Shown: positions 22,280 through 41,096 of the stretch, piece by piece
How the letters are laid out: the number at the start of each line of letters is the position of its first letter
Numbering within the stretch: the stretch's first letter is position 1
Origin: Halosolutus halophilus
Lineage (GTDB): Archaea > Halobacteriota > Halobacteria > Halobacteriales > Natrialbaceae
Direction of reading: 5' to 3'
Assembly (NCBI RefSeq): GCF_022869805.1
Contig: NZ_CP094974.1
Span: 4,712,001-4,776,000 of the forward strand
Length of the DNA stretch: 64,000 nucleotides
Notes under the pieces: generated by a model
Seen by the model: the letters and a program-made list of their open reading frames with translations, nothing else
Told to the model about the DNA's origin: nothing
The model's database searches: none
Translations under genes and position numbers: made by a program

Positions 22280-25200
22280 TCACTCGATCGCCGCGTCGAC
22301 GAGTTCGATCGGCGTGGGCGGCTCCTTGGCCGCTCCGGGGCGGTTCTCGAGTTGCGTCCGGCAGGACGCGCCGGGGGCGACGACCCGCTCGCCGTCGCTG
22401 TCGTCCACCTGGTCGTAGAGAATCCCGGCGATCGCGTCGCTCATCGAGGCGTGTTCGGTCTCGTAGCCGAAGCTCCCGGCCATCCCGCAACAGCCCGAAT
22501 CGAGCGGATCGACCGCGTAGCCGGCCCGCCGGAGGACGCCGACGGCGTGGTGGTCCTTCCGGGTCGCCTTCTGGTGGCAGTGGCCGTGGTAGGTCAGGCC
22601 CGGCCCGCTCTCGGGGTCGCGGGCGAACGCGATCGATTCGTCCAGGCGGAACGCGTCGAGATACTCGCAGACGCCGTAGGTCGCGTTCGCGACCCGATCG
22701 ACGGCCTCGCCGGTGAGCAGGTCGCGATAGTCCGACTGGAACATGACCGCGTCGGAGGGTTCGATCACGACCACGTCCCGGCCGTTCTCGACGAGCGGGT
22801 CGAGCACCCGGACGTTCTCCCGGGCGGTCTCGCGTGCCGTCTCGAGGAACCCCTTCGAGAACGCCGGACGGCCGGTGTCGCCGAGTTCGTCGGGGACCGT
22901 CACGTGGACGTTCGCCGCCTCGAGCACGCGGACGGCCGCTTTTCCCGCTTCGGGGTGGCTGTAGTTGGTGTAGGTGTCGGGATACAGAACGACCCGGCGA
23001 TCGGCTTCGTCGGGATCGACTTGTGCGCCGCCGCGGTACTCGAACCAGTCCCGGAACGTGGTCGCGTAGAACGTCGGTAGCGGACGATCCGAGGCGATGC
23101 CGACGGTCGCGTCGAGCAGCGTGCGAGCGCCCGGGAGTTTCGGGAGGACGTTCGAGAGCGGCGCGAGTTGGGATCCCCACCTCGAGAGGGTCGCGACGTT
23201 GGCGAAGAGTCGATCGCGCAGCGTCGACCCGTTGCGCTGGTGGTACTCGTGGGTCACTTCGGCCTTGAGCTTCGCCATGTCGACCTCGCTCGGACAGTCG
23301 ATGGCACAGCCCTTGCAGCCGATACACAGCCCCATCACCTCCTCGATAAACTCGTCGGAGAACGCCTCGTCTGGATCCAGGTCGCCGCTCATCGCCTGCC
23401 GGAGTGCGTTCGCCCGGCCGCGGGTGGCCGTGATCTCCTCGCGACTCGCGCGGAAGGTCGGACACATCACGCCGCCGGTCGTCGACTGCTCGCCCCGGCA
23501 GCCGCCACAGCCGTGACAGAGTTCGACCATCCCCTGCATCCCGTTGTCGTTGTCCCACTCGAGTTCGGGTTCGAAACCGGTCTCGAACTCGTAGTCGGGA
23601 TCGAACCGCAGGTGCTCGCGTAGGTCCGTGGGATCGTCATCCCGGAAGACGACCTGTCCGGGGTTCAGGAGCCAGTCGGGGTCGAACGCCGACTTGAGGT
23701 CCTGGAAGGTCTCCCAGAGCCGATCGCCGTACAGCTTCCGGTTCCACTGGGTACGAGCGCGGCCGTCGCCGTGTTCCCCGGAGACCGAGCCCCCGAGTTC
23801 GACGACGAGGTCGGTCACATCGTCCGCGATGCCGTGCAGTTGCTCGAGGCCAACGTCCGTCTTCGTGTTGACGAGCGGCCGGACGTGGAGGACGCCGGGG
23901 CCGGCGTGGGCGTAGAAGCTCGCGTAGGTGCCGTGTTCCTCGAGAATTTCTTCGAACCGCTCGACGAACTCCGGGAGTTTTGCGGGCGGGATCGCCGTAT
24001 CCTCGATGAACGAGATGTGCTTCTCGTCGGTCGTTCGCGAGAGCAGGATCGGGAGCCCGGACTTGCGGAGTTTCCAGAGTTTGGCGCGCTCGTCCTTCTC
24101 GTAGGCTTCGAGCGCGTCGATCGCCAGCCGCTCGGCATCGTCTTCGCGCGGGCGCTGTCCGTGCGAATGGTCAGAGGGACTTCGTCCCTCGCTACTCGCC
24201 GACGCGGTTGCGGCGGGCGCACCCTCGGGAGTGACGGCCGGACAGCGATCGGCCAGCAGGCCGGCGACCTGGTCGCGGCCGTGGTCGCCGTCGTCGGCGT
24301 AGAACTCCACGAGGAGGACGGCGTTCGTCCCCTCGGGAAGCATCCCGGTGACGGGGCCGAACTCCGCGGTATCGCGTGCGAGGTCGATCAACACGTCGTC
24401 TAGCACTTCGACCGCCGCGGGGTCGTGTTCGAGGATCGGTTCGACGTCTTCCATCGCCTCGTGGAGGTCCCGGTAACAGAGCAGCGACACGGCCTTGGTC
24501 TCGGGAATCGGTTCGAGCGACACCGTGGCCTCGGTGACGATCGCGAGCGTCCCCTCGCTGCCCGCGAGGAGCCGTGCGAGGTTGACCGTGCCCGGCTCAC
24601 CGCCGGCTTCGGCACCGCCTTCGGTTCGCGACGACTCCGCCGTCGCGCTCTCCTCGCCGCCCGGCAACGCCGCGCCACGGGCCTCCGCGACGAGCCGATC
24701 GAGGTTGTATCCCGACACGTTTCGCTTGAGATCGGGGTAGGTCTCCGCGATGACGTCGGCGTCCTCTTCGAGAATCCGTTCGACTTCGGCGTAGATCCGG
24801 CCTTCGAGGTCGCCGTCCGGATCGGCCCGTTCGGCGATTTCGTCGAGCGTGACCGCGCCGAACGTCGTCACCGTGCCGTCGGCGAGCACGGCCTCGACTT
24901 CCTCGACGTAGGCGTCGGTCTTGCCGTACACGAGCGAGTGCGACCCGGTCGAGTTGTTCCCGATCGCGCCGCCGATCGCGCTCTTGTCGCCCCAGGCGGG
25001 GTCGGGCGCGAACTTGAGATCGTGCGGGACGAGGGCCTCGTTCAGCGTCCCGAGGATCGTCCCCGGCTGGACCGTCGCCGTTCGAGCGTCGGGATCGATC
25101 GAGCGGATCTCGTTCATGTGTCGCGTGAAATCGAGTACGACGGCCCGATTGACCGTCTGACCGGCGAGACTCGTCCCGCCACCCCGCGGGAGAACCGGAA

Positions 25201-25456
25201 GCCCCCGGGCGGCGCAGTACTCGACGATCCCGACGACGTCGGCCGTCGACTCGGGGAAGGCGACCGCGATCGGGGTCACCTCGTAGGCGCTCGCGTCCGT
25301 CGCGTACAGTTCGCGCGAGTAGGTGTCGGCACGCACGGTGCACTCGACGAGCTCCGCCAGGTCCGCGACGAGCGCCGGCCGATCGACGCCCTCGCTCCGG
25401 TAGTCGTAGTTCGCACGCCGGTCGGCAGCCGGGTCAGCGCTCCGCTCCGTGGCCAT
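22280..25456 (-). CDS. FAD-linked D-2-hydroxyacid (D-lactate-type) dehydrogenase with Fe-S and CCG domains
   Basis: 1058 residues. An FAD-binding PCMH-type domain (LPRGGGTSLAGQ at 90-100) and an FAD-oxidase C-terminal domain are followed by iron-sulfur motifs CHGCGGC (about 647) and CIGCKGCAIDC (about 715), then cysteine-rich GHCHQKA and SGCCGMAGSFGYE (about 995), as in glycolate oxidase GlcD-GlcF fusions. It should oxidise a D-2-hydroxyacid such as D-lactate or glycolate and pass electrons to the respiratory chain. Two Glu/Ser/Gly-rich inserts (near residues 275 and 425) break the flavin domain; the second is coded by a perfect palindrome. ATG at 25456. Confidence 0.9.
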   Translation of the reverse strand: MATERSADPAADRRANYDYRSEGVDRPALVADLAELVECTVRADTYSRELYATDASAYEVTPIAVAFPESTADVVGIVEYCAARGLPVLPRGGGTSLAGQTVNRAVVLDFTRHMNEIRSIDPDARTATVQPGTILGTLNEALVPHDLKFAPDPAWGDKSAIGGAIGNNSTGSHSLVYGKTDAYVEEVEAVLADGTVTTFGAVTLDEIAERADPDGDLEGRIYAEVERILEEDADVIAETYPDLKRNVSGYNLDRLVAEARGAALPGGEESATAESSRTEGGAEAGGEPGTVNLARLLAGSEGTLAIVTEATVSLEPIPETKAVSLLCYRDLHEAMEDVEPILEHDPAAVEVLDDVLIDLARDTAEFGPVTGMLPEGTNAVLLVEFYADDGDHGRDQVAGLLADRCPAVTPEGAPAATASASSEGRSPSDHSHGQRPREDDAERLAIDALEAYEKDERAKLWKLRKSGLPILLSRTTDEKHISFIEDTAIPPAKLPEFVERFEEILEEHGTYASFYAHAGPGVLHVRPLVNTKTDVGLEQLHGIADDVTDLVVELGGSVSGEHGDGRARTQWNRKLYGDRLWETFQDLKSAFDPDWLLNPGQVVFRDDDPTDLREHLRFDPDYEFETGFEPELEWDNDNGMQGMVELCHGCGGCRGEQSTTGGVMCPTFRASREEITATRGRANALRQAMSGDLDPDEAFSDEFIEEVMGLCIGCKGCAIDCPSEVDMAKLKAEVTHEYHQRNGSTLRDRLFANVATLSRWGSQLAPLSNVLPKLPGARTLLDATVGIASDRPLPTFYATTFRDWFEYRGGAQVDPDEADRRVVLYPDTYTNYSHPEAGKAAVRVLEAANVHVTVPDELGDTGRPAFSKGFLETARETARENVRVLDPLVENGRDVVVIEPSDAVMFQSDYRDLLTGEAVDRVANATYGVCEYLDAFRLDESIAFARDPESGPGLTYHGHCHQKATRKDHHAVGVLRRAGYAVDPLDSGCCGMAGSFGYETEHASMSDAIAGILYDQVDDSDGERVVAPGASCRTQLENRPGAAKEPPTPIELVDAAIE
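24174..24190. repeat. In-frame palindrome inside the dehydrogenase gene
   Basis: GAGGGAC-TTC-GTCCCTC, 7-base perfect arms with a 3-base loop, in the stretch coding the Ser/Ala/Glu-rich insert near residue 425. Same design (3-base loop, in frame, in a surface insert) as the palindromes in nadB, the TrpD-like gene and the thioesterase at 41.5 kb. Confidence 0.65.
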
Positions 25457-27888: not shown

Positions 27889-29175
27889 CTACCGGTGATC
27901 GTAGACACGCTTGACCTTCCCCACCTCGGTCCGTTCGATGCTGCCCGGTTCGGCGATGATCAGGTCGTCCGGCGTGAACGAGAGGACGTTCTCGAGTCGG
28001 GTGAGCACGCGGTCGTGCAACTCCGTCTCGTCGACGGCGACGTCCGGTTCGCGCTCGATCGACAGTTCGAGGCGATCCAGATTGTCCTCCCGATAGAGGT
28101 CGATCCGGTAGTACGGCGCCACCTCGTCGAACTCGAGGACGACCTCTTCGATCTGGCTGGGGTAGAGGTTGACGCCGCGGACGATGAGGAGGTCGTCGGC
28201 ACGACCGGTGACGTTGTCCATGCGAACCATGGTGCGCCCGCACTCGCACTCGTCGGACGTGAGCGTGGTGAGGTCGCCGGTGCGATACCGGATGGCCGGT
28301 AAGGCCTCTTTCGTCAGCGTCGTCAACACGAGTTCGCCCTCCTCGCCCTCGGGGAGCACCTCGCCCGTCTGGGGATCGATCACCTCGGGGTAGAAGTGAT
28401 CCTCCCAGATGTGCAACCCGTCCTGGGCCTCGTGACACTCGTTTGAGACGCCAGGGCCGATGATCTCCGAGAGGCCGTAGATGTCGATCCCGGTCGCGTC
28501 GAGTCGGTCTTCGATCTCCTCGCGCATCGGGTCGGTACAGGGTTCGGCACCGAAGATAACCGTCGAGACCGGCAGTTCCGACGGGTCGATCCCCATCTCG
28601 TCGGCCGTCTCGGCGAGGTACAACGAGTACGAGGGCGTACACGCGATCGCGTCGCTCTCCAGGTCCTGCAGCAACTCGACCTGCCGCTGAGTCTGGCCGC
28701 CGCCGATCGGGATGACCGTCGCCCCGAGTTCTTCGATCCCGTAGTGGAGGCCGAGGCCACCCGTGAACAGGCCGTAGCCGTAGCCGTTCTGGACCGTATC
28801 TCCCGGTTCGACGCCGGACGCGACGAGACTCCGGGCGACGACCTCGCTCCACACGTCGAGGTCGTCCTCGGTGTAGGCGACGATCTTGGGTTTGCCGGTC
28901 GTGCCGGAAGAGGCGTGAATGCGGAGAACGTCGTCGTCGTCGACGGCGAAGAGGCCGTCGGGGTACTCGTCGCGGAAGTCGGCTTTCGTGGTGAACGGTA
29001 CCTTCTGGAGGTCGTCGACCGTCCGAATGTCCTCCGGCGCGACGCCCGCTTCGTCGAACGCGTCCCGGTAGTACTCGACGTTCTCGTAGGCGTTGCGGAC
29101 CGTCTCGCGGAGCCGTTCGTTTTGCAGCTCCCGAATCTCTTCCCGCGGTGCCGTCTCGATCTGCGTATAACTCAT
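27889..29175 (-). CDS. paaK: Phenylacetate-CoA ligase, copy 1
   Basis: 428 residues. Activates phenylacetate (ATP + CoA) to phenylacetyl-CoA. The AMP-loop RIHASSGTTGKPKIVAYT (about residues 88-105), FGAEPCTDPMREEIE, YGLSEIIGPGV, the RYRTGDLTTL segment, the CECGRTMVRM Cys pair and the hinge/C-terminal IERTEVGKVKRVYDHR are all diagnostic. It is about as similar to copy 2 (39798-41096) as recent paralogues are, with long stretches of identical nucleotides. It faces away from the ABC importer. ATG at 29175 (MSYTQIE); an ATG 20 codons upstream is less likely. Confidence 0.93.
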   Translation of the reverse strand: MSYTQIETAPREEIRELQNERLRETVRNAYENVEYYRDAFDEAGVAPEDIRTVDDLQKVPFTTKADFRDEYPDGLFAVDDDDVLRIHASSGTTGKPKIVAYTEDDLDVWSEVVARSLVASGVEPGDTVQNGYGYGLFTGGLGLHYGIEELGATVIPIGGGQTQRQVELLQDLESDAIACTPSYSLYLAETADEMGIDPSELPVSTVIFGAEPCTDPMREEIEDRLDATGIDIYGLSEIIGPGVSNECHEAQDGLHIWEDHFYPEVIDPQTGEVLPEGEEGELVLTTLTKEALPAIRYRTGDLTTLTSDECECGRTMVRMDNVTGRADDLLIVRGVNLYPSQIEEVVLEFDEVAPYYRIDLYREDNLDRLELSIEREPDVAVDETELHDRVLTRLENVLSFTPDDLIIAEPGSIERTEVGKVKRVYDHR

Positions 29176-29405: not shown

Positions 29406-30002
29406 TCAGCGGTTCGCCGGTCGCTCCGCCGGCGGTAACTGCACCGTCTCGACGATCGGTTCGTCGAACGAGAGGCGCATCCGGAGGTCGTTCCCGCTCC
29501 GATCGACCGTCTCGAACCCCATCCGACGGTAGACGTGCACTGCCCGCTCGTTCGCGGCGTCGACGTCGAGCACGAGCGCGTCGTGTCCGGCGTCGGCGGC
29601 GAAGGCGATCACGTGTCGGCAGAGTTCGGTCCCGATGCCGCGGTCGTGGAACGCCGGATCGACGAAGACGACGAACTGGGGTTCCACGCTCGAGCACGGC
29701 GAGTAGGCCGCGTGGCCGACGACCGTCCCGTCGTGAGCGGCAACGACGTTAAAGCCGCGCTCGATCAGGCGATCGAGCCACTCCGCGATGCGATCGCGGC
29801 CGACGGGCGGAATCCCCATCGATCGGTGGGCCTCGGGATAGTCGACGTACATCGAGACGAGCGCCTCGAAGCGAGCGGACTCGAAAGGCTCGACCAGAAT
29901 CGGTTCGCCGTGTTTGTCGACGAATCGGGGGCAGCGAGGGGGACAGCCCGCCGTTCCGTCACAGTTCGAGGGGTCCCAGGCGGAGCAGGTATCGGTCGGC
30001 AT
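29406..30002 (-). CDS. GNAT acetyltransferase with Cys-rich N-terminus
   Basis: 198 residues. The N-terminus has a cysteine cluster (SNCDGTAGCPPRCPRFVDKHG) that may bind metal. The GNAT domain follows: motif A in FVDPAFHDRGIGTELC, then VDAANERAVHVYRRMGFETV. The cysteine-headed GNAT arrangement is one I have seen in haloarchaea, but its substrate is unknown. Not evidently related to phenylacetate metabolism. Confidence 0.82.
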   Translation of the reverse strand: MPTDTCSAWDPSNCDGTAGCPPRCPRFVDKHGEPILVEPFESARFEALVSMYVDYPEAHRSMGIPPVGRDRIAEWLDRLIERGFNVVAAHDGTVVGHAAYSPCSSVEPQFVVFVDPAFHDRGIGTELCRHVIAFAADAGHDALVLDVDAANERAVHVYRRMGFETVDRSGNDLRMRLSFDEPIVETVQLPPAERPANR

Positions 30003-30133
30003 CGGCGGTCACGGGTGTGAGTTGGACGCACACGCCCATCACTCTCGTCCCGTTTATGTACGCCCTTTTTATAGGATAGCGTCGAGCGGCGGGATGAGTC
30101 ACCGTCGCGGCACGGGCGACTCGTCGCCACGGA

Positions 30134-30529
30134 TCACCCTTCGGGACTGACGGTCATCACGGGCATATCGGTTCCGAGGATGACCGACTGCGTGACGCTG
30201 CCGAAGATGACCTTCCCAGTCGGCGTTCGTTTCCGTCCCGACAGACAGATCATGTCCGCGTCCGTCTCGTCGGCCGCGGTGATCAGTTCGCGTGCCGGTT
30301 CCCCGCTCGCCTCGTAGTACTCGTAGTCGACGCCGCGCTCGTCGAAGGACGCTGCTACGTGTCGGACGCCGTCGAGTTGCTGGACCGATCGTCCCTCGGG
30401 GTTCTCCTGAAAGACGTGCGCGAGTATCGCCGTAATCTCGTCGGTCGCACCCGGCATGGTCTCGATCGCCGACGCCTGTGCGGTCGCCCGGTCCACGTCG
30501 GTGTCGAGTCCGACCAGTATCCGGTACAT
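30134..30529 (-). CDS. Universal stress protein, UspA family
   Basis: 131 residues with the UspA fold. It begins MYRILVGLDTDVDRA and ends with the ATP-binding signature in SGRKRTPTGKVIFGSVTQSVI and MPVMTV. It therefore belongs to the nucleotide-binding class. Divergent from the ABC importer operon. Two TTTATAC words at about 30570-30587 may give its TATA box on the minus strand. Confidence 0.9.
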   Translation of the reverse strand: MYRILVGLDTDVDRATAQASAIETMPGATDEITAILAHVFQENPEGRSVQQLDGVRHVAASFDERGVDYEYYEASGEPARELITAADETDADMICLSGRKRTPTGKVIFGSVTQSVILGTDMPVMTVSPEG

Positions 30530-30772
30530 ATCACGCTACTCGTTCGCGGAATGCATAACGATCGGGCGCTATTTATACGGGTTTTATACTATCGGGGGAC
30601 GTCGTCGATGCGCCGGATGACCGCCCTCCCCGCAGAGTACGGCCGAGTTCGGAGCCGTCTGCGGGGGGTCCCGTGACGGGTAGGGTCCCCGGTCGTCCGG
30701 CATCGTTCCGAACTGGTCGAGCGCGCCTCGGACGATCGAGAGTCCGAACTCGGAGAGTTTTGCCGGCAGTTT

Positions 30773-30813
30773 GTATATAAAACCACGATAAATGGTGGTC
30801 GATTTTTATAGGT
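30773..30813 (+). promoter_or_regulatory. Liv operon promoter sharing an element with the paaA promoter
   Basis: TATATAAAACC (TATA box) followed by ACGATAAATGGTGGTC and GATTT. It contains the inverted repeat ACCAC-N8-GTGGT (30782-30799). Aligned without gaps to 36896-36936, 32 of 41 bases agree, and the leader just before both ATGs is also alike (CTACTGAACG versus CTAGTGAAACG). The ATG is at 30834, 61 bases from the start of the element. It is read as a common operator overlapping or following the TATA box. Confidence 0.75.
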
Positions 30814-30833
30814 TATTATGATCTACTGAACGT

Positions 30834-32099
30834 ATGACCCGAGGTGGCAGGGGCCATGGGCGGAGACGTGACGTTCTCAAAGCAATAACTGCGGGGACTG
30901 TCGCCGGACTGACCGGATTGGCCGGTTGTGTTGGCGATCCTGAAGAAGCATCCGACGAAGACGACGAGGAGTTCGACACGGTCCAGTTCGGCGTCCTCGA
31001 ACCGTTCACGGGCGAGTTCAGTGACCTCGCCGAAGAGCGACATCAGGGGACCGAACTCGCGATCCAGCAGGTCAACGAGAGCGACGAGTACGACTTCGAA
31101 ATCGAGTACAGCGAGTACGACACGCAACTCGACCCGGCGACGGCGACACAGCGAGCCCAGGAGGCGGTCCAGTCCGACGAGGCGCAGTTCATCACCGGCT
31201 GTATCTCGAGTTCCGTCGCGCTCGCGATCAACGATTTCGCGCTCGAGAACGAGGTAGTCTACACGCCGGGGGCGGCAGACGTCTCGATCACGGGGAGCAA
31301 CTGCAACGAGTACGTGTTCCGGTTCGAGACGAACACCGCACAGATCGCCGAAGTGATGGCCCAGTGGACCACCGACGAATTCGGCGATCGGATCTTCTAC
31401 CACATCGCGGACTACGCCTACGGCGAGTCGGTCCTGAACGAAGTCGAGACGCGGATGGAGTCGATCAGCGACTCCTACGAACAGGTCGACGTGACCCGAT
31501 CGGACCCGGGGTCGACCGACTTCGAGGCGTTCATCAGCCAAATCGCGAGCGCGAGCGACGACGCCGACGCGCTCGTCGTGGGGATGACCGGTGCCGACCT
31601 CGCGATTTTCCTCTCGCAGGCCAGCGAGCGCGGGCTACAGGACGAGATTCCGATCGTGACGACGACGGGGTCGTTCCGCGCCATCCGCGCCGGTGCCGGC
31701 GCGGGTGCGTACAACACCTACAGCGGGGTCCGATACGTTCCGAGCATCGAGACCGGTGACAACCAGGCGTTCGTCGAGGCGTACGAATCGGAGTACGACG
31801 CCGTCCCGGACAACTTCTCGCGCGTCGGCTACGAGTCGATCCGGATGGTCGCGAACGGGATCCGCGAGGCCGGATCGCGCGATCCGACGACGGTCGCGGA
31901 AACGCTCTCGGGACTGGAACACGACACGATCTTCGGCCCGAACGAGTTCCGGGAGTGCGACCAACAGGCGCTGAACCCGGTCTGGATGGGCGAGTGCGTC
32001 GAACCGGACGACGGCGACATCGCGGACGTCGAACTCCTGACGGACCTGTCCGGGGAAGACGCAGCGCCCGACTGCGAGGAGATCGACTGTGACCTGTAA
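30834..32099 (+). CDS. ABC transporter substrate-binding lipoprotein (LivK type)
   Basis: 421 residues. The N-terminus has a Tat motif (RRRDVLK, residues 10-16), a short hydrophobic core and lipobox LAGC with Cys32, so it should be exported folded and anchored by lipid. An acidic linker (about 34-48) follows, then a type I periplasmic-binding fold beginning VQFGVLEPFTGEFSDL, with GCISSSVALAI, GDRIFYHIADYAYG and FSRVGYESIRM. The family takes up branched-chain amino acids, amides or aromatic acids. Placement between paaK and the paaA operon and the shared promoter suggest an aromatic acid such as phenylacetate; this is inference. Confidence 0.9.
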   Translation: MTRGGRGHGRRRDVLKAITAGTVAGLTGLAGCVGDPEEASDEDDEEFDTVQFGVLEPFTGEFSDLAEERHQGTELAIQQVNESDEYDFEIEYSEYDTQLDPATATQRAQEAVQSDEAQFITGCISSSVALAINDFALENEVVYTPGAADVSITGSNCNEYVFRFETNTAQIAEVMAQWTTDEFGDRIFYHIADYAYGESVLNEVETRMESISDSYEQVDVTRSDPGSTDFEAFISQIASASDDADALVVGMTGADLAIFLSQASERGLQDEIPIVTTTGSFRAIRAGAGAGAYNTYSGVRYVPSIETGDNQAFVEAYESEYDAVPDNFSRVGYESIRMVANGIREAGSRDPTTVAETLSGLEHDTIFGPNEFRECDQQALNPVWMGECVEPDDGDIADVELLTDLSGEDAAPDCEEIDCDL

Positions 32100-32129
32100 C
32101 GGGTGCGTGCCAGGCGCTTCCAGATAACC

Positions 32130-34109
32130 ATGGTCGGAGAACTCCTCCAGATTCTGTTCGACGGGCTGACGATCGGCGTCGTCTACGTGTTGCTCGCCGC
32201 CGGACTGTCGGTCATCTTCGGCGTCATGCACGTCATCAACTTCGCCCACGGAGAACTGTTCGCGCTCGGGGCGTACTTCGCGCTCGCACTGGTCGCGCCG
32301 TTCGGGGCGGCCGGCTTCTTCGTCGCGTTGCTCGTCGCCCCGCTGCTGGTCGGCGTCGTCGGCGTCGCGATCGAACGCTACACGGTGCGACCGCTGTACG
32401 GTCGGAATCCCCTCTATCACATCCTGCTCACGTTCGGCCTGGTGCTGGTGATAAACGACCTGATATACCTCGTCTGGGGGACGGGAAGCACCAGCCTCGC
32501 CGTGCCGGCGGTGCTCTCGGGATCGATCGACGTCCTCGGGCTCAACACCAGCGTCTACAACACGTTCATCATCGTCTTCGGGAGCGTCATGGCGCTGGCC
32601 GTCTGGGCGGTCCTCGAACACACGAAGTACGGGCTGATCATCCGGGCCGGGTCCCAGGACCGGCAAATGGTTCGCAACCTCGGGATCGACATCGATCGGT
32701 ACTACTCGCTCGTCTTCGGCGGGGGCGCGGCGCTCGCCGCCGTCGCGGGTATCATCCTCGGCGGCTACCAGACGGTCAACCCGGGGATGGGGATGTCGAT
32801 CATCATTCCGGCGTTCGTAATCGTCGTCCTCGGCGGCCTCGGCAGCTTCAGGGGCGCCGTCGTCGGCGGTCTCCTCGTCGGGATCATCCAGACGTTCCTG
32901 CGTACCTACGTCCCGTTCTTCGAGGGACTGGTGATCTTCCTGCTGATGATCGTCGTCCTCCTCTTTCGACCCCGCGGGCTGTTCGGGGTCGAATTCGAAG
33001 AGGAGAGCGGCGGCGACCTCCTCACCGGCTCCGATGGCGGGATCCTCGACCCGCGGACCCGGACCCGACTCGGACTCGCGATGGTCGGCGTGCTCGCGGT
33101 GGTCCCCCTCGGGGCGGGGACGCTGTACTCGTCGTACGCGGTCACGTTCGTGATCGAGGTCATGATCTGGGCGCTGTTCGCGCTCAGCCTGGACTTCGTG
33201 ATGGGCTACACGGGACTGGTTTCGCTCGGCCACGCGCTGTTCTACGGGCTCGGGGCCTACGCGGTCGCGATCGCCTTGCTCTACGTGAGCGGTTCCGCGA
33301 TCGTCGCGATCGCTTTCGCGATCGTCGTCTCCGCGGCGATCGCCTGGTTCGTCGGCTACCTCTCGATCCGCGTCTCCGGGGTCTACTTCGCCATGATCAC
33401 GCTCGCCTTCGCCGAGTTGTTCTACAACGCCCTGTACCGGGACCCGCGCGGGCTGACCGGCGGTTCGGAGGGCCAGTTCGGGCTCTCGACGTACTACGGG
33501 ATCGCCGGGATGGGAGTCTCGCTCGACGACGTCGCGATTTTCCTCGGCCCCGTCGCGCTGACCGGCCAGTCGCTGTTTTACTACATCGCGCTCGCGAGTC
33601 TGGTCGCCGCGTTCCTGCTCACCCGGCGGATGCTCGAGTCGCCGTTCGGGTCGGTGCTCAAGTCCATCCGCGAGAACGAGCAGCGAGCGACGTTCATCGG
33701 CTACGAGACGACCGTCTACAAGCGGCGCGCGTTCGTGATCAGCGGCGCGCTGGCGGGCGTGGCCGGCGGGCTCTTCACCCTCAACGCGGGGTACGCGACG
33801 CCGTCGTTCGCCTACTGGCTCCACTCCGGCGAAGTGATCGTGATGGTCATCCTCGGGGGCCTGGGAACGCTCTACGGACCGATCGTCGGTTCGGCGGTGT
33901 TCTTCGGTCTCGAAGGGGTACTCACGGACTTTACCAGCAGGTGGCGGCTGGTGCTCGGGACGATCTTCGTCCTGTTCGTCATCTTCCTCCCGCGCGGACT
34001 GGTGTCGCTCCCGGCCCAGGTCGCCCCGTACGTGACGGGCGGGTCCGGTCCCGGCCCGGACGCCGCGGAGCCCACGCCGGACGAACCGAGCGTCAGAGGT
34101 GACGACTGA
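32130..34109 (+). CDS. Fused LivH-LivM ABC permease
   Basis: 659 residues carrying both permease subunits that are usually separate. Residues about 1-290 are LivH-like (GLSVIFGVMHVINFAHGELF, MVRNLGIDI, GLGSFRGAVVGGLLVGI, RPRGLFG). A polar linker (about 291-318, EEESGGDLLTGSDGG) follows, then a LivM-like half (YTGLVSLGHALFYGLGAYA, YLSIRVSGVYFAMITLAFAE, SIRENEQRATFIGY, LGGLGTLYGPIVGSAVF, FLPRGL). No frameshift is needed and the linker is in frame. ATG at 32130 preferred to a GTG at 32103. Its stop overlaps the livG start as TGATG. Confidence 0.93.
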   Translation: MVGELLQILFDGLTIGVVYVLLAAGLSVIFGVMHVINFAHGELFALGAYFALALVAPFGAAGFFVALLVAPLLVGVVGVAIERYTVRPLYGRNPLYHILLTFGLVLVINDLIYLVWGTGSTSLAVPAVLSGSIDVLGLNTSVYNTFIIVFGSVMALAVWAVLEHTKYGLIIRAGSQDRQMVRNLGIDIDRYYSLVFGGGAALAAVAGIILGGYQTVNPGMGMSIIIPAFVIVVLGGLGSFRGAVVGGLLVGIIQTFLRTYVPFFEGLVIFLLMIVVLLFRPRGLFGVEFEEESGGDLLTGSDGGILDPRTRTRLGLAMVGVLAVVPLGAGTLYSSYAVTFVIEVMIWALFALSLDFVMGYTGLVSLGHALFYGLGAYAVAIALLYVSGSAIVAIAFAIVVSAAIAWFVGYLSIRVSGVYFAMITLAFAELFYNALYRDPRGLTGGSEGQFGLSTYYGIAGMGVSLDDVAIFLGPVALTGQSLFYYIALASLVAAFLLTRRMLESPFGSVLKSIRENEQRATFIGYETTVYKRRAFVISGALAGVAGGLFTLNAGYATPSFAYWLHSGEVIVMVILGGLGTLYGPIVGSAVFFGLEGVLTDFTSRWRLVLGTIFVLFVIFLPRGLVSLPAQVAPYVTGGSGPGPDAAEPTPDEPSVRGDD

Positions 34110-34909
34110 TGGCTACGGAACCGACCACATCCACACGACGCAATACCGACGAACCGATCCTCCGGACGGAGAACCTCGTCAAGAAGTTCGGCCAGTTCAC
34201 GGCGACCGATCGGATCGACCTGACGGTGCCGCGAGGCGAGTTTCGGAGCATCATCGGCCCGAACGGCGCCGGCAAGACCACGCTGTTCAACCTCGTCACG
34301 GGCGCACTGCCCGTCACCGACGGGTCGATCTACTTCGACGGCGAGGAGATCACCTCCCTGTCGCCCTCGCAGCGAGTGCGCCGCGGGATCGGCCGATCGT
34401 TCCAGATATCGAACGTCTTCGGTGGGCTCACCGTGCGCGAAAACGTCAGGCTCGCCGCCCAGTCGATCGGGCGCGACCAGTACAACGTCGCCGAATCGCT
34501 GTTCAAACCGACCGATCGGTACGACGAGATGAACGATCGGACCGATCGGATCCTCGACCGGATCGGCCTCGCCGACGTCGCCGACGAAACGGCGGACGCG
34601 CTCGCCTACGGGGACAAGCGACGACTCGAGATCGGGGTCGTGCTCGCGACCGACCCCGATCTCGTCCTGTTCGACGAACCGACCGCCGGCATGAGCGTCG
34701 AGGAGACCCAGGAGACGATCGACCTGATCGAGGAGGTGCTGGTCGACCAGACGCTGTTGCTCATCGAGCACGACATCGAACTCGTCATGGAACTCTCCGA
34801 TCGCATCACCGTGTTGAACCGCGGGCAGGTCCTCGCGGAGGGGACGCCCGACGAGATCGCCGAGAATCAGGACGTTCAGGACGCCTATCTCGGGGGGATG
34901 CTCGAATGA
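34109..34909 (+). CDS. livG: ABC transporter ATP-binding protein, LivG type
   Basis: 266 residues. Walker A IGPNGAGKTT (about residues 53-62), Q-loop SFQISNVFGGLTV, signature-region LAYGDKRRLEIG (a LivG-style variant of LSGGQ), Walker B DLVLFDEPTAGM and switch His in LLIEHDIELVM. It energises the fused permease upstream and pairs with LivF downstream. Its ATG overlaps the permease stop and its own stop overlaps the livF start (ATGA), so translation is coupled. Confidence 0.94.
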   Translation: MATEPTTSTRRNTDEPILRTENLVKKFGQFTATDRIDLTVPRGEFRSIIGPNGAGKTTLFNLVTGALPVTDGSIYFDGEEITSLSPSQRVRRGIGRSFQISNVFGGLTVRENVRLAAQSIGRDQYNVAESLFKPTDRYDEMNDRTDRILDRIGLADVADETADALAYGDKRRLEIGVVLATDPDLVLFDEPTAGMSVEETQETIDLIEEVLVDQTLLLIEHDIELVMELSDRITVLNRGQVLAEGTPDEIAENQDVQDAYLGGMLE

Positions 34910-35628
34910 GTGACGATCCGCTGCTCTCGGTCGATCGGGTCGACTCGGGCTACGGCGAGACGCAAGTGCTCCGGGACCTGTCGCTGTCGGTCGACGAGGG
35001 CGAGATCGTCTCGCTGGTCGGTCGAAACGGCGCGGGGAAGACGACGACGCTGCGGACCATCATGGGAATCCTCGCCCCGACGAGCGGGCGAGTCACGTAC
35101 CGTGGGGAGGACATCTCGACGCTCGACGCGACGACGACGGCACAGCGGGGGCTCGCACTCGTGCCGGAGGAGCGACGGATCTTCCCGGAGCTCTCGGTCA
35201 GGGAGAACCTGGAACTCGCCGACCACGGCGGGGCCCCCGACGCCGATTCGCTGTCGGTCGACGAGGCGCTCGAGACGTTCGAGAACCTGCAGACGCGCGC
35301 GGGCAACCCCGGGTCGTCGCTGTCGGGCGGCGAACAGCAGATGCTCGCGATCGCTCGCGCCCTCGTCGGCGGTGCCGAGCTCGTCCTGCTCGACGAACCG
35401 ACCGAAGGGCTCGCGCCCTACATCGTCCAGGACGTGATGGACATCGTCGCCGACCTCAACGATCGGGGAATCACCGTCCTGCTCGTCGAACAGAACGTCC
35501 ACGTCTGTCTCGAACTCGCCGATCGGAACTACGTGATCAACCAGGGCGAGATCGTCTACGAGGGAACCGCCTCGGACCTCCGGGCGAACGACGACGTCCT
35601 CGACAGGTACCTCGGCGTCACCGCGTGA
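34906..35628 (+). CDS. livF: ABC transporter ATP-binding protein, LivF type
   Basis: 240 residues. Walker A VGRNGAGKTTT, Q-loop region VPEERRIFPELSV, signature LSGGEQQMLAIARAL, Walker B ELVLLDEPTEGL and switch His in LLVEQNVHVCLEL. Last gene of the importer operon. Four-base overlap with livG. The next gene is convergent. Confidence 0.94.
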   Translation: MSDDPLLSVDRVDSGYGETQVLRDLSLSVDEGEIVSLVGRNGAGKTTTLRTIMGILAPTSGRVTYRGEDISTLDATTTAQRGLALVPEERRIFPELSVRENLELADHGGAPDADSLSVDEALETFENLQTRAGNPGSSLSGGEQQMLAIARALVGGAELVLLDEPTEGLAPYIVQDVMDIVADLNDRGITVLLVEQNVHVCLELADRNYVINQGEIVYEGTASDLRANDDVLDRYLGVTA

Positions 35629-35747
35629 GCGAGGCTGGCCCGAAGTCTGTACGATCGAGTCGATTCCGCCGGATTTTCGAGCGATCGAGACACCACCATC
35701 GTGGCGTCCGGACGATCGTTCTCGTCGCTCACACACTCACGCGTCGC

Positions 35748-36140
35748 TCACGGGTTGTACACGCGGCCGCGAAACGTCGCGACGCGATCGTCGTCCTCGT
35801 CGGTGACGACGACCTCGAACTCTGCGGTGCGCCCACCGTCGTGGGTTTCTTCGGCCGTCGCGGTGAGGACGGTCCCGACCTCGACGGCTTCGAGGTACGA
35901 GATGTTCGTCTCGAGGGCGACCGCGGTCTCCCCGTCCGCGTTCGAGGCGGCGGCGAACGCGGCGTCGGCGAGCGAGTAGATTGCGCCGCCGTGGGGCGTC
36001 CCGTGGAAGTTCGTCAGGTCGTCGGTGATCTCGAGTCGCGTCCGTGCGACTCCCGGTTTGAGGTCGACGAGGTCGATCCCGAGCGTCTCGCAGTAGGGGT
36101 CGCTCTCGATGTGGTTGCGGATGGCCTCGGTATCCGTCAT
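35748..36140 (-). CDS. PaaI-type acyl-CoA thioesterase, copy 1
   Basis: 130 residues, hot-dog fold of the PaaI group. The active-site stretch NFHGTPHGGAIYSLADAAFA holds the conserved HGG and the catalytic Asp. PaaI-type enzymes hydrolyse stalled phenylacetyl-CoA and hydroxyphenylacetyl-CoA to rescue CoA. It lies 79 bases downstream of the bat-type regulator on the same strand. ATG at 36140 (MTDTEAIRNH); an upstream GTG at 36152 is less likely. A perfect 14-base palindrome lies 15-28 bases ahead of the start. Confidence 0.87.
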   Translation of the reverse strand: MTDTEAIRNHIESDPYCETLGIDLVDLKPGVARTRLEITDDLTNFHGTPHGGAIYSLADAAFAAASNADGETAVALETNISYLEAVEVGTVLTATAEETHDGGRTAEFEVVVTDEDDDRVATFRGRVYNP

Positions 36141-36154
36141 ACCATACCACACCG

Positions 36155-36168
36155 ATTTCCGCGGAAAT
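36155..36168. promoter_or_regulatory. 14-base perfect palindrome ahead of the PaaI-type gene
   Basis: ATTTCCGCGGAAAT, self-complementary throughout, 15-28 bases upstream of the start at 36140 and between it and the regulator gene. The position would overlap the transcription start of a leaderless gene, as a repressor operator would. Confidence 0.4.
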
Positions 36169-36218
36169 GTATCTAGTGGATCCGGAACTCGATCGGAACC
36201 TCGCCGGTGGAGCCGAAC

Positions 36219-36863
36219 CTACCGGAAGATCTGCCGAAACAGCGCCGCTTCGCCGCGGCGGAGTCGCTCGAGAAACGCGGACTTGCTGATCCCGAGTTCG
36301 TCGGCGACGACTTCGGAGGACGTCTCGCGGGGAATCGCGAAGTATCCCATCTCGAGGGCCGTGCGGATGCACTCCTCCTGGGCCGGCGTGAGATTCCACC
36401 GCTGACTGGGGGACTCCTTCGCTTCGGACTGGAGTGGATAGACCCGCTCGAGTTTGACGCCGACGGTGTCGCCGGCCGCCTCCATGACGCCCTTGAGAAC
36501 GTCTCGACCGACGACCGCGCCGAAGATCATCGCCGCGCCATCCCGGTATCGCAGCGTCTCGACGATGAGTCCCCCGTCGATCAGTCGGTGGACGACGCAG
36601 GGATGTTTCGACAGGCACCGATACCGGTTCCGTCCGTCGGTCTTCGAGACGTGCAGGTACGAGATCCGCTCGTCGTCGTCGAGGGCCTGGGTCAACCGAT
36701 CGCTCGTCGGCGAACTGAACTGCAGGAGATCGTAGCCGTCGCTGCGCCGCTGTGGCGGTTGCGCGCTGACCTCGACGTCGACGGAACTCGCCTGTGTCGC
36801 CTCCGCAAGCGGACAATCGTCGTTTTCGACGCGAAATTCGACCGCGAGACATTCGTCGATCAT
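36219..36863 (-). CDS. Bacterio-opsin-activator-type HTH regulator
   Basis: 214 residues. The N-terminal about 150 residues form a sensor-like domain (FRVENDDCPLAE, CLSKHPCVVHRLIDGG with paired Cys/His). The C-terminal HTH_10 domain reads LTPAQEECIRTALEMGYFAIP, then ETSSEVVADELGISKSAFLERLRRGEAALF. Such regulators control catabolic genes in haloarchaea. It is divergent from paaA with only 100 bases between starts, so the shared promoter element lies in its own upstream region. It is the best candidate to regulate paa and liv genes, by position; its ligand is unknown. Confidence 0.9.
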   Translation of the reverse strand: MIDECLAVEFRVENDDCPLAEATQASSVDVEVSAQPPQRRSDGYDLLQFSSPTSDRLTQALDDDERISYLHVSKTDGRNRYRCLSKHPCVVHRLIDGGLIVETLRYRDGAAMIFGAVVGRDVLKGVMEAAGDTVGVKLERVYPLQSEAKESPSQRWNLTPAQEECIRTALEMGYFAIPRETSSEVVADELGISKSAFLERLRRGEAALFRQIFR

Positions 36864-36895
36864 CCGGATCGTCTACACACGTTTACTTCGGCGTA

Positions 36896-36936
36896 GTATT
36901 TAAAACCTCGTTATATGGCGGTCAATTTCTAAGGGT
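36896..36936 (+). promoter_or_regulatory. paaA operon promoter with the element shared with liv
   Basis: TATTTAAAACC (TATA box) followed by TCGTTATATGGCGGTC and AATTT. Consensus of the two copies: TATnTAAAACCnCG, then nTAnATGGnGGTCnATTT. It has an imperfect ACCTC-N8-GCGGT inverted repeat. The paaA ATG at 36964 is 68 bases from the element start. It lies between the divergent regulator and paaA. Confidence 0.75.
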
Positions 36937-36963: not shown

Positions 36964-37905
36964 ATGGACCTCGACACAGTGAAAGACCGGGCGGGGCCGC
37001 GGGAGTTTAGCCCCGCCGACGACCTCCCCGAGGAGTACCGGAAGGCGGCGACGCGGATGATCGAATTCCACGCGAACAGCGAGATCATGGGCGCGTACCT
37101 GGAGCGGCCGTTCATCCGCCAGGCCCCGAGCATCGATCGGAAGCTGGCCTTTTCGGCGAAGGTACAGGACGAAATCGGTCACGGACAGTTGCTCTATCGC
37201 GCCGCCGAATCGCTCGGCGTCAAGACCCGCGAGGAGATGCTGGACGACCTCGCCAACGGCGACGGGAAGTTCCTCAACTGCTTTCACTACCCGATGGAGA
37301 AGTGGCCCGAGACGGCGATGATCGCGTTCTTCGTCGACGGTGCGGCGATGCGTCGGCAGGCCACGCTCCGGCGGACGAGTTGGGAACCGTACGCCCACGC
37401 GATGGACAAGGTGTGTTTCGAGGAAGGGTTCCACGTCAAACACGGCGAGGACATCCTCGCGACGCTGATGAGCGGCTCGCGGAAAGAACAGGAACAGACC
37501 CAGGAGGCCTTCGAGACGTGGTGGCCCCGCATCATCCAGTTCTTCGGGCCGACCGACGATCAGAGCACGCACCACGACTTCGCGGCCTCCGTGGGGCTGA
37601 AACAGAAGTCCAACGACGAACTCCGGACCGCCTTCCTCAACCAGTACATCCCCAAGGCGGAGAAGTACGGCCTCGAGATCCCGGACGAGCCCCGCATCCG
37701 CAAGAACGACGAGGGCGATTACGAGGTCGTCGAGAGCGACCTCGACTGGGACGAGTTCTTCACGATCGCGAAGAACGAGTACGACCCCGGACTCGGCCAG
37801 ATCAACGGCCGCAAGGCCGCACAGGAGGCCGTCCAGTGGGTCCGCGACACGATCGAAACCGACAGTACAGCCGCCGGCGGCCACGCGCCGCAGGCGGCCG
37901 ACTGA
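36964..37905 (+). CDS. paaA: Phenylacetyl-CoA epoxidase catalytic subunit
   Basis: 313 residues, di-iron oxygenase of the ferritin-like fold that forms the 1,2-epoxide of phenylacetyl-CoA. The two ExxH iron-binding motifs are visible: DEIGHGQ (Glu70, His73) and EEGFHVKHGED (Glu154, His157). FAAK-like SAKVQDE and the WWPRIIQFFGP segment also match. It heads a tight operon with paaB, paaC, paaD and the zinc-ribbon gene. It normally needs PaaC as structural partner and an external reductase. Confidence 0.95.
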   Translation: MDLDTVKDRAGPREFSPADDLPEEYRKAATRMIEFHANSEIMGAYLERPFIRQAPSIDRKLAFSAKVQDEIGHGQLLYRAAESLGVKTREEMLDDLANGDGKFLNCFHYPMEKWPETAMIAFFVDGAAMRRQATLRRTSWEPYAHAMDKVCFEEGFHVKHGEDILATLMSGSRKEQEQTQEAFETWWPRIIQFFGPTDDQSTHHDFAASVGLKQKSNDELRTAFLNQYIPKAEKYGLEIPDEPRIRKNDEGDYEVVESDLDWDEFFTIAKNEYDPGLGQINGRKAAQEAVQWVRDTIETDSTAAGGHAPQAAD

Positions 37906-37907
37906 CC

Positions 37908-38225
37908 ATGATCTGGGAAGTGTTCCGCCAGGAGAAGACCGGGGGGTACCACACCCACTGTGGCAACGTCCACGCGCCCGATCGGGAGATGGCGAAGCAG
38001 TTCGCCGCCATCCAGCACGGCCGCCGCAAGCCCACCAACAGCCTCTGGGTCGTTCCGAGGGACGAGATCGGCGAGATCGACGCCGAGGACGTCGCCTTCG
38101 GCGGGACGATCGACAAGAGCTACCGCTGGGCGACGGCGTACAACACGACCGGGCAGGACGCCCGCGAGGTCGTCGAATCGGAGGACGAACAGGCGACGGC
38201 CGAAAAACAGCGGGGTGACGACTGA
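37908..38225 (+). CDS. paaB: Phenylacetyl-CoA epoxidase subunit B
   Basis: 105 residues. WEVFRQEKTGGYHTHCGNVHAPD and the GRRKPTNSLWVVPRDEI segment are typical of PaaB, a small subunit needed for activity that bridges PaaAC heterodimers. The start lies 2 bases after the paaA stop and the stop overlaps the paaC start as TGATG. The acidic, Gln-rich tail is longer than in bacteria. Confidence 0.93.
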   Translation: MIWEVFRQEKTGGYHTHCGNVHAPDREMAKQFAAIQHGRRKPTNSLWVVPRDEIGEIDAEDVAFGGTIDKSYRWATAYNTTGQDAREVVESEDEQATAEKQRGDD

Positions 38226-39094
38226 TGTCGACGACGCTTGACGATCCCACGGACCTCGACGAGCGCGAACGAACCGCGCTCGAAACCCTGCTAAAGCGAC
38301 TGGGCGACGACGAGTTCGTACTCGCCGAACGCTACACGGAGTGGCAGGTTCGCGCGCCGAGCCTCGAGTCCGACCTCGCGCTGGCGAACAACGCGCAGGA
38401 CGAACTCGGCCACGCCCGCCTGTGGTACGACGTGCTCGCGGACCTCGGCTTCGAGGAGCGCGATCTGGTGTACGAGCGCGACCCCGAGGACTTCCGGCAC
38501 AGCACGCTCGTCGAACTCCCGTTCGAGGAGGGCGACTGGGCCGACGCCGTCCTCCGATCGTACCTCTACGACGTCGCCGAGGACCTCCGGCTCGAGGCGC
38601 TGGAGGACTCGTCGCACCCGAAGATCGCCGATCGGGTTGGCAAGATCCGCAGCGAGGAGGAGTACCACCGCGAGCACGCCCAGAACTGGCTCGACCGCCT
38701 CGCCGACGGCGAGGAGGGCCACGAGCGCCTGCAGGACGCGCTCGATCGGCTGTTCCCGCACGCGTTGACGCTCTTCGAGCCAGTGGATCCTGATATCGAG
38801 GCGGACATCGTCGACCTCGGCCTTCGCGACGCGACCCTCGAGGAACTGGGTGAGGAGTGGCTGTCGATCGTCGTCCCGTACCTCGAGTCCCTGGATCTCG
38901 TCGTTCCCGCGAGCGGCCAGCGGGACGCCGACGACGAGTTCGAGTTCGCGGTCACCCGCGAGATGCTCCCCGAGGCGCGCGGCCGGGACGGCTCCCACAC
39001 CGACGCGTGGTTCGACCTCTACGACGAGTTCACCCACACGTACCGCGACCTCGGGCGAAGCGACACGACGAAAATCATGGACGAACCAGAATGA
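38225..39094 (+). CDS. paaC: Phenylacetyl-CoA epoxidase structural subunit
   Basis: 289 residues, ferritin-like fold without a complete iron site, partner of PaaA. The family stretches ERYTEWQVRAPSLESDLALA, NNAQDELGHARLWYDVL and KIRSEEEYHREHAQNWLDRL are present. It overlaps paaB by one base and paaD by four (ATGA), so synthesis is coupled. Confidence 0.94.
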   Translation: MSTTLDDPTDLDERERTALETLLKRLGDDEFVLAERYTEWQVRAPSLESDLALANNAQDELGHARLWYDVLADLGFEERDLVYERDPEDFRHSTLVELPFEEGDWADAVLRSYLYDVAEDLRLEALEDSSHPKIADRVGKIRSEEEYHREHAQNWLDRLADGEEGHERLQDALDRLFPHALTLFEPVDPDIEADIVDLGLRDATLEELGEEWLSIVVPYLESLDLVVPASGQRDADDEFEFAVTREMLPEARGRDGSHTDAWFDLYDEFTHTYRDLGRSDTTKIMDEPE

Positions 39095-39540
39095 GCGGCG
39101 AGATTCCGGACCCGGGCGCGAAATCGAGCTTCTCCCCCGCCCCGGACGCCGAGGCGACGCCCTGCGCGTACACCGACTACCGAAAGGGTGAGGCGGCCGA
39201 CGACCTCCCGGCGACGGGCGACGACGCGACCGGCGTCGAGGCCGACGTGTGGGACGTCCTCTACGAGATCGAGGACCCCGAGATGCCGATCAGCATCGTC
39301 GACCTCGGGCTGATCTACGGCGTCACGGTCGCGGACGGCGTCGCGACGGTCGACATGACGCTCACCTACTCGGGCTGTCCGGCCCGGGACATGCTCACGG
39401 AGCAGGTCGAGGAGGCGGTCGCCGCCGTCGACGGCATCGAGGAGGCGGCGTTGCGACTCGTCTGGAGTCCGGAGTGGACCGTCGAGATGGTGACCGAACG
39501 GGGCAAAGACGACCTGCGAGAGTTCGGCCTGAGCATATGA
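39091..39540 (+). CDS. paaD: PaaD, MIP18/DUF59 part only
   Basis: 149 residues. After a 45-residue acidic N-terminal extension comes the MIP18-family domain (VWDVLYEIEDPEMPISIVDL, GLIYGV, TYSGCPARDMLTEQV) thought to help assemble the iron cofactor or cluster. Bacterial PaaD continues into a C-terminal zinc ribbon; here the frame stops first and the ribbon is in the next overlapping gene. Stop and next start overlap as ATGA. Confidence 0.9.
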   Translation: MSGEIPDPGAKSSFSPAPDAEATPCAYTDYRKGEAADDLPATGDDATGVEADVWDVLYEIEDPEMPISIVDLGLIYGVTVADGVATVDMTLTYSGCPARDMLTEQVEEAVAAVDGIEEAALRLVWSPEWTVEMVTERGKDDLREFGLSI

Positions 39541-39797: not shown

Positions 39798-41096
39798 ATG
39801 CAAACTGAACACATGGCAGGGATTAGCCAGCACACCTCCCGCGAGGAACTGCGGGAGTTGCAGTCGAAGCGACTCCGAGATACAGTCGAACACGCCCACG
39901 AGAACGTGCCGTTCTATCGCGAACGGCTGGACGAGGCCGGCGTCTCGCCGGCGGATATCGACGGCGTCGACGACATCGAGACGGTACCGTTCACCACGAA
40001 GGCCGACTTCCGCGACGAGTACCCCGACGGCCTCTTCGCCGTCGGCGACGACGACGTTCTCCGCATCCACGCCTCTTCCGGCACGACCGGCAAACCCAAG
40101 ATCGTCGCCTACACCGAGGACGACCTCGACCTGTGGAACGCGGTGATGGCCCGATCGATGGACGCCGCGGGCATCGGGCCGGCCGATACGGTCCAGAACG
40201 CCTACGGCTACGGCCTGTTCACGGGCGGCCTCGGCTTTCACGGCGGTGCCGAGGAACTCGGGGCGACGGTCGTCCCGACGAGCAGCGGCAACACCCAGCG
40301 GCAGGTCGAACTCGCTCGCGACCTGGAGAGCGACGCGATCGCGTGTACGCCCTCGTACGCGCTCTACTTCGCCGAGACGGCCGACGAGATGGGCGTCGAT
40401 CCGCGCGACCTGTCCATCTCCACGGTGCTGTACGGGGCCGAACCCTGCACGGAACCGATGCGCGAGGAGATCGAAGACCGACTCGACGCGACCGGGATCG
40501 AGAACTACGGCCTCTCGGAACTGATCGGCCCCGGCGTCGCCGCCGAGTGCCGCGAGGCCCAGGACGGCATGCACATCTGGGAGGATCACTTCTACCCCGA
40601 GGTGATCGATCCCCAGACGGGCGAGGCGCTCCCCGAGGGCGAGGAGGGCGAACTCGTGTTGACGTCGTTGACGAAGGAGGCGGTCCCCGTCCTGCGATAC
40701 CGGACCGGCGACCTCACCACGCTCACGTCCGACGAGTGCGAGTGCGGGCGCACCATGGTTCGCATGGACAGCGTCACCGGCCGCGCCGACGACCTCCTCA
40801 TCGTCCGCGGCGTCAACCTCTACCCCAGCCAGATCGAGGACGTCGTCCTCGAGTTCGACCCGATCGCGCCGCAGTATCGGATCGACCTCTATCGGGAGGG
40901 GACCCTCGATCGACTCGAACTGACGATCGAACTGGTCGACGGATTCGACGGCGAGACGGCCGCCCTCCGCGAGGCGGTGCTCGATCGGCTGGAGAACACC
41001 CTCTCGTTCAGGCCGGACGCCCTCGACCTGGTCGAGTACGGGACGATCGAACGGACGGAGGTCGGGAAGGTCAAGCGCGTGTACGATCATCGCTAA
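39798..41096 (+). CDS. paaK: Phenylacetate-CoA ligase, copy 2
   Basis: 432 residues, same reaction and motifs as copy 1: RIHASSGTTGKPKIVAYTED, YGAEPCTEPMREEIE, YGLSELIGPGVAAEC, the RYRTGDLTTLTSDECECG run and IERTEVGKVKRVYDHR. Follows the zinc-ribbon gene by 90 bases. AATTTT at 39775-39780 is about 20 bases ahead of the ATG at 39798; a second ATG at 39813 (MAGISQ) aligns better with copy 1, so the start is uncertain by five codons. Copies may differ in substrate (phenylacetate versus substituted forms) or in timing. Confidence 0.93.
   Translation: MQTEHMAGISQHTSREELRELQSKRLRDTVEHAHENVPFYRERLDEAGVSPADIDGVDDIETVPFTTKADFRDEYPDGLFAVGDDDVLRIHASSGTTGKPKIVAYTEDDLDLWNAVMARSMDAAGIGPADTVQNAYGYGLFTGGLGFHGGAEELGATVVPTSSGNTQRQVELARDLESDAIACTPSYALYFAETADEMGVDPRDLSISTVLYGAEPCTEPMREEIEDRLDATGIENYGLSELIGPGVAAECREAQDGMHIWEDHFYPEVIDPQTGEALPEGEEGELVLTSLTKEAVPVLRYRTGDLTTLTSDECECGRTMVRMDSVTGRADDLLIVRGVNLYPSQIEDVVLEFDPIAPQYRIDLYREGTLDRLELTIELVDGFDGETAALREAVLDRLENTLSFRPDALDLVEYGTIERTEVGKVKRVYDHR

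Follow-up and report, generated by a model that had tools for sequence, protein, structure and literature searches.

A conserved dyad element before the phenylacetyl-CoA epoxidase operon and an ABC importer of Halosolutus halophilus, with a Bat/DmsR-type protein as candidate regulator

Two near-identical elements in the genome of Halosolutus halophilus, one before the paaA operon and one before the operon of an ABC importer, are probably sites for a dedicated transcription factor that governs a small regulon of phenylacetate uptake and catabolism, with the HTH_10 protein encoded beside paaA as its activator. We analysed a stretch of 64,000 nucleotides (contig NZ_CP094974.1, positions 4,712,001 to 4,776,000), called the window here and numbered from its first base. 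The features concerned are as follows.

27889-29175, minus strand: paaK, first copy, behind usp and gnat (NF041878, 827 bits, cut-off 700)
29406-30002, minus strand: GNAT acetyltransferase, gnat (PF00583)
30036-30073, minus strand: fourth, weaker copy of the element, 71 bp ahead of the gnat gene that precedes paaK (score 13.5, simulated maximum 6.8; E 0.036)
30134-30529, minus strand: usp, universal stress protein family (PF00582)
30553-30590, minus strand: third copy of the element, 61 bp ahead of usp and divergent from the importer (E 2.9e-6; score 22.5)
30774-30811, plus strand: candidate regulatory element of the importer promoter (E 2.5e-9; 31.7 with the paaA-only matrix; A+T peaks)
30782-30799: dyad core of the importer-promoter element
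about 30800-30811: putative core-promoter block CGATTTTTATAG of the importer element
30834-32099, plus strand: importer solute-binding protein (PF13458, Peripla_BP_6, E 5.3e-66)
32103-34109, plus strand: importer permease, LivH-LivM fused (PF02653, BPD_transp_2, in two stretches)
34109-34909, plus strand: importer ATPase LivG (PF00005 and PF12399)
34909-35628, plus strand: importer ATPase LivF, start approximate (PF00005, E 8e-36)
35748-36152, minus strand: 4HBT thioesterase, PaaI-like, adjoining the regulator gene (PF03061)
36219-36863, minus strand: HTH_10 (Bat/DmsR-type) candidate regulator, divergent from paaA (PF04967, PF15915)
36897-36934, plus strand: candidate regulatory element of the paaA promoter (32/41 identity; E 5.8e-10; 54.4 bits with the other-genome matrix, simulated maximum 6.8)
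36905-36922: dyad core of the paaA-promoter element
36964-37905, plus strand: paaA (TIGR02156, above cut-off)
37905-38225, plus strand: paaB (NF041867, above cut-off)
38225-39094, plus strand: paaC (TIGR02158, above cut-off)
39091-39540, plus strand: paaD (NF041868, above cut-off)
39798-41096, plus strand: paaK, second copy, downstream of the paa operon (NF041878, 798 bits, cut-off 700)

PaaA, PaaB, PaaC and PaaD equivalogs lie in order and above their NCBIfam cut-offs, which identifies a 1,2-phenylacetyl-CoA epoxidase operon; a Peripla_BP_6 protein, a BPD_transp_2 permease and two ATPases likewise identify an ABC importer of the branched-chain (HAAT) type. The permease is a single protein of 668 aa, apparently a fusion of the two usual Liv permeases. 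The start of the first paaK was placed at 29175 from the model match, which begins at residue 177 of a long ORF, and from the sequence. Elsewhere in the window, 22280-25456 encodes a protein of 1058 aa that joins an FAD oxidase domain to 4Fe-4S and CCG cysteine-rich domains and is a large fused D-2-hydroxyacid-dehydrogenase-like enzyme.

An initial annotation had described the pair of elements at 30773-30813 and 36896-36936, and our alignment agrees with it: the two copies share 32 of 41 bases with no gap, both contain the inverted repeat ACCnC-N8-GnGGT, and they start 61 bp (importer) and 68 bp (paaA) ahead of the ATGs. Its further statement, that similarity resumes right before the ATG, holds only weakly (CTACTGAACGT against CTAGTGAAACG, 7/11, at differing spacing) and may reflect chance. 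Two more copies, absent from that annotation, lie on the minus strand at 30553-30590 and 30036-30073. The best further same-strand match to either original copy in the window is 21/41; on the opposite strand it is 26/41, to the importer copy, at 30551-30591, the genuine third copy. Only four of ten usp orthologs have an element at -61, and similar sites are found upstream of gnat orthologs.

Specificity was assessed over the whole 5.06-Mb genome with a 19-base pattern, TAAAACCNCGNTANATGGNGGTC, allowing three mismatches or fewer. Both copies matched perfectly, together with one 3-mismatch site in apparent coding sequence; the reversed control pattern had one match. A 29-site profile hit exactly three places in the genome (E 5.8e-10, 2.5e-9 and 2.9e-6) and a broader 57-site profile four, all within the paa/importer cluster. 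Since both profiles contain the genome's own sites, the fair test is a matrix from the paaA promoters of other genomes. Such a matrix, trained solely on these promoters and controlled with 30 simulated windows, scored four window sites at 54, 32, 22 and 13.5; the next position scored -4.2 and the simulated maximum was 6.8. Many equally good hits at unrelated promoters had been named beforehand as evidence against joint control, and the scans instead place the sites near-exclusively at the paaA/importer cluster. Off-target pattern matches (L003, L048-L052) lie away from paa and importer genes, in apparent coding sequence, in a transposase-like ORF and at a spot beside a DNA methylase gene common to related genomes, and were taken as chance. 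Chance resemblance or a generic promoter as the explanation of the element was ruled out by the genome-wide scans and by the genomes that lack paa genes.

The expected conservation of both copies in relatives was found, for the paaA and the importer promoters alike. With two mismatches or fewer, the pattern occurred in 34 of 125 family genomes, nearly always some 63 bp ahead of paaA; the few remaining matches were the importer copy or chance sites. Direct reading of upstream regions showed the element ahead of all paaA orthologs examined, from within the family out to Haloferax, Halorussus, Halobaculum and Halobacterium, some versions being more divergent yet recognisable. Strong profile matches in 12 paa-positive relatives sit at paaA, importer or usp positions, and the eight paa-negative genomes of the same sample have no profile match below E 0.1. 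Applied to 116 genomes sampled across the class, the broad profile detected the element in 48/54 genomes with paaA versus 0/62 without, and all 32 loci that were opened are located at paaA or its cluster. Judged by this distribution, the element is ancient.

The left edge of the element lies 65.2 +/- 2.9 bp (61-72 bp across Halobacteria) from the paaA ATG, whereas its distance to the regulator ATG is 51 +/- 81 bp (range 21 to 419 bp). Because the first spacing is steady and the second variable, the element belongs to the paaA promoter, and the notion that it merely accompanies the promoter of the regulator gene was rejected. It may serve the regulator too where both are close.

Importer orthologs, defined at E <= 1e-90, were found in 52 family genomes, 50 of which have paaA; the two exceptions are matches of 44% identity. 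In many genomes the importer lies away from paaA. Scored with a matrix from paaA promoters only, 40 of 48 importer upstream regions beat the best of 1000 shuffles; the left edge is mostly at -60, and three further regions carry a weaker site at precisely that position. The importer element is present in every one of the 11 genomes that have importer and paaA on separate contigs or at a distance of about 100 kb or more (G001, G002, G003, G005, G006, G028, G030, G032, G099, G110 and G113). Linkage or recent copying cannot explain an element at unlinked importers; joint control can. With the same matrix, no element was found at four importer homologs of 50-54% identity (L293, L294, L300 and L302) or at two paralogs of 42-44%. 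The proposal that uptake and ring epoxidation are jointly controlled is thus strongly supported at the level of sequence, by an element conserved at both promoters, near-exclusive to them and persistent when they are unlinked. Family models give the importer just generic amino-acid/urea-type solute-binding matches, and its solved relatives are diverse solute-binding proteins that are not decisive on substrate; regulon membership predicts that the importer is likely a phenylacetate or aromatic-acid transporter. At one importer locus (L261, G107) the binding-protein gene has a single in-frame TAG stop, a pseudogene or a sequencing error, and an intact promoter element.

The logo pooled from 117 distinct sites begins with TATWTAAA, followed by a dyad whose arms are CC and GG and whose centre is the AT of a middle YATR, and then by CAA-n(4)-TAWG, a block resembling a core promoter. 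The TATWTAAA flank is nearly invariant and itself TATA-like. The dyad is imperfect: clear covariation between the halves is confined to one base pair (z 5.8), and overall covariation (0.588 versus 0.551 in shuffles) is weak beyond it. Importer promoters have A+T peaks at -32 to -25 and at -10/-9 of the ATG, and usp orthologs with neither dyad nor TATWTAAA retain a GGAA-ATTATG-like block at -35 to -24, with ATTATG at -28. These features match the haloarchaeal BRE (CGAAA), TATA (TTWT) and -10 (WW) elements (PMC4983044), at positions that would fit a leaderless or nearly leaderless transcript. Since the core block is kept in usp orthologs that lack the dyad, we infer that the dyad is an upstream activating site; it sits directly upstream of the putative BRE/TATA core, as an activator site would.

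We propose that a dimer of the linked Bat/DmsR-type HTH_10 protein binds the dyad at about -53 to -36, through half-sites of the form ACC/CCC...GGT/GGG centred on YATR, and would aid TBP/TFB at the core promoter next to it (CAAnnnnTAWG for paaA, CGATTTTTATRG for the importer). The regulon would comprise paaABCD(K) and the branched-chain-type importer, and in this genome also usp and gnat-paaK. Importer and epoxidase would be induced together, the presumed inducer being phenylacetate or its CoA ester and the presumed cargo of the importer an aromatic acid; the cell would thus probably turn on uptake along with breakdown. Activation is further suggested by analogy, because the HTH_10-domain protein Bat (PMC1447603) and its HTH_10 relative DmsR (PMC3184054) are positive regulators. 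Against the proposal count the TATA-like flank, the importer homologs that lack the element, its presence at just four of ten usp orthologs and the imperfect dyad. In Haloferax alexandrinus silver induced paaABCDHIJK together (PMC10694973), which shows that the whole pathway can be induced at once.

The same regulon and regulator could also work by repression, with the dyad lying between TATWTAAA as the TATA box and the start site, and phenylacetyl-CoA releasing the regulator. TATWTAAA is suited to this role by its near-invariance and TATA-like sequence, a start about 27 bp downstream of it would land near TAWG, and in bacteria PaaX and PaaR repress the paa genes (PMC13186573). We nevertheless consider repression somewhat unlikely, given that usp orthologs without TATWTAAA and the dyad keep a core-promoter-like ATTATG at -28 with GGAA upstream, that the A+T peak at -10/-9 is consistent with transcription beginning at the ATG, and that the known HTH_10 relatives activate.

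The C-terminal domain of the linked protein is an HTH_10 (PF04967, E 6.8e-17, 61.5 bits, residues 158-209), which places it in the family; the BAT-associated N-terminal domain PF15915 scores 26.1 bits, barely above the cut-off of 25.8, and a DmsR_N-like N-terminus scores 21.4 bits, below the 27-bit cut-off. In a Pfam scan at E 0.001 the 214-aa protein has no GAF, PAS or PAC sensor domain, so it is not a Bat proper, and it has no domain of GntR-type PaaX or TetR-type PaaR (Pfam matches are solely HTH_10, BAT and DmsR_N; NCBIfam gives no match). The predicted structure (mean pLDDT 84.8) combines an N-terminal beta-alpha sandwich with a helix-turn-helix like that of sigma region 4. For the N-terminus, Ta1207 is the best fold match (Z 9.9, rmsd 3.4 over 138 residues), followed by many middling ferredoxin-like, ACT and NikR matches from which no ligand can be read. 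The recognition-helix region ISKSAFLERLRR is nearly invariant among orthologs. In the N-terminal domain C5, C17, C83, C89 and H92 are invariant across 36 orthologs and, by way of speculation, might form a ligand or metal site. It is possible, and we suggest it tentatively, that the protein is a one-component sensor of phenylacetate or phenylacetyl-CoA, a Bat-family activator of a class-wide regulon whose N-terminal sandwich, perhaps with the Cys/His set, binds the inducer or a metal/redox co-signal.

Orthologs of the regulator track paaA exactly, both in the family (74/74 genomes with paaA, 0/51 without) and in the class sample (54/54 and 0/62). The gene is adjacent and divergent to paaA in most genomes, and this adjacency partly explains the co-occurrence. 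Five genomes, all of one genus, have it far from paaA, beside a MaoC-type gene in the one that was opened, and two other genomes have it about 4 kb away; paaA retains the element also where the regulator lies elsewhere. Haloferax species possess paaA, the regulator and the element ahead of paaA. Perfect co-occurrence and adjacency thus favour the Bat-type gene as the candidate regulator, as the initial annotation had suggested. Joint control could alternatively be exerted by another factor, an HTH_10 paralog or a specialised TFB/TBP pair, with the neighbouring gene a passenger. The regulator has about 55 matches in the genome, for the most part other HTH_10 proteins, one of which could bind instead, and the element abuts the core-promoter region. 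We regard this as quite unlikely, as the regulator is present in exactly the genomes with paaA, even when unlinked, and general factors would mark far more promoters than three or four. That the copies are chance or a recently duplicated promoter segment with no regulatory meaning might be suspected from this genome alone, where the two copies share a strand and are separated by 6 kb, yet it deserves almost no credence, being refuted by class-wide conservation at fixed spacing and by the element at unlinked importers.

With the linked protein as activator, the system would belong to a known kind, the small regulon in which an HTH_10-type protein acts on a palindromic site. Like the Bat-bop regulon of Halobacterium, it has a candidate regulator with C-terminal HTH_10 and an N-terminus that matches the BAT-associated domain, and few promoters that would be co-regulated, and the position of its site fits one next to and upstream of the putative core promoter; unlike Bat, the regulator has 214 aa with neither GAF nor PAS in the Pfam scan, and its targets are phenylacetate genes. 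It resembles DmsR of the dms operon as an HTH_10 protein with a (sub-threshold) DmsR_N-like N-terminus that is expected to activate, and differs in its operon and presumably its signal. The proposed local one-component control of paa genes is shared with bacterial PaaX (GntR-type) and PaaR (TetR-type), although by Pfam and NCBIfam scans the protein here is of a different family. A 2026 survey reported most Halobacteria to be without PaaX/PaaR and local phenylacetate regulators; the regulators it scored were PaaX, PaaR and PaaY, and HTH_10 genes were not among them (PMC13186573). The locus described here argues against that conclusion. Our literature search, to which subscription journals were mostly closed, found no paper on a haloarchaeal phenylacetate regulator, which is not proof of novelty. 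For Halobacteria the locus points to a probable regulator and operator acting locally on phenylacetate genes, where the survey found most without one (PMC13186573); an otherwise generic importer gets a probable role, and one of many unassigned HTH_10 regulators (about 55 matches in the genome) gets a specific, testable candidate target site.

In conditioned-medium proteomics of Haloferax volcanii, PaaC and a UspA protein (HVO_B0095) fall strongly together, and LivJ1 shifts in the opposite direction (PMC12240190). One genome contains a second, diverged paaA/regulator pair (L100, G084:C1:2992000-3003000; 49% and 40% identity), in whose intergenic region a canonical element (score 21.7) faces the second regulator, and TTAAATCCTGCTCTATAGAGCA, of the same layout with a different half-site, faces the second paaA.
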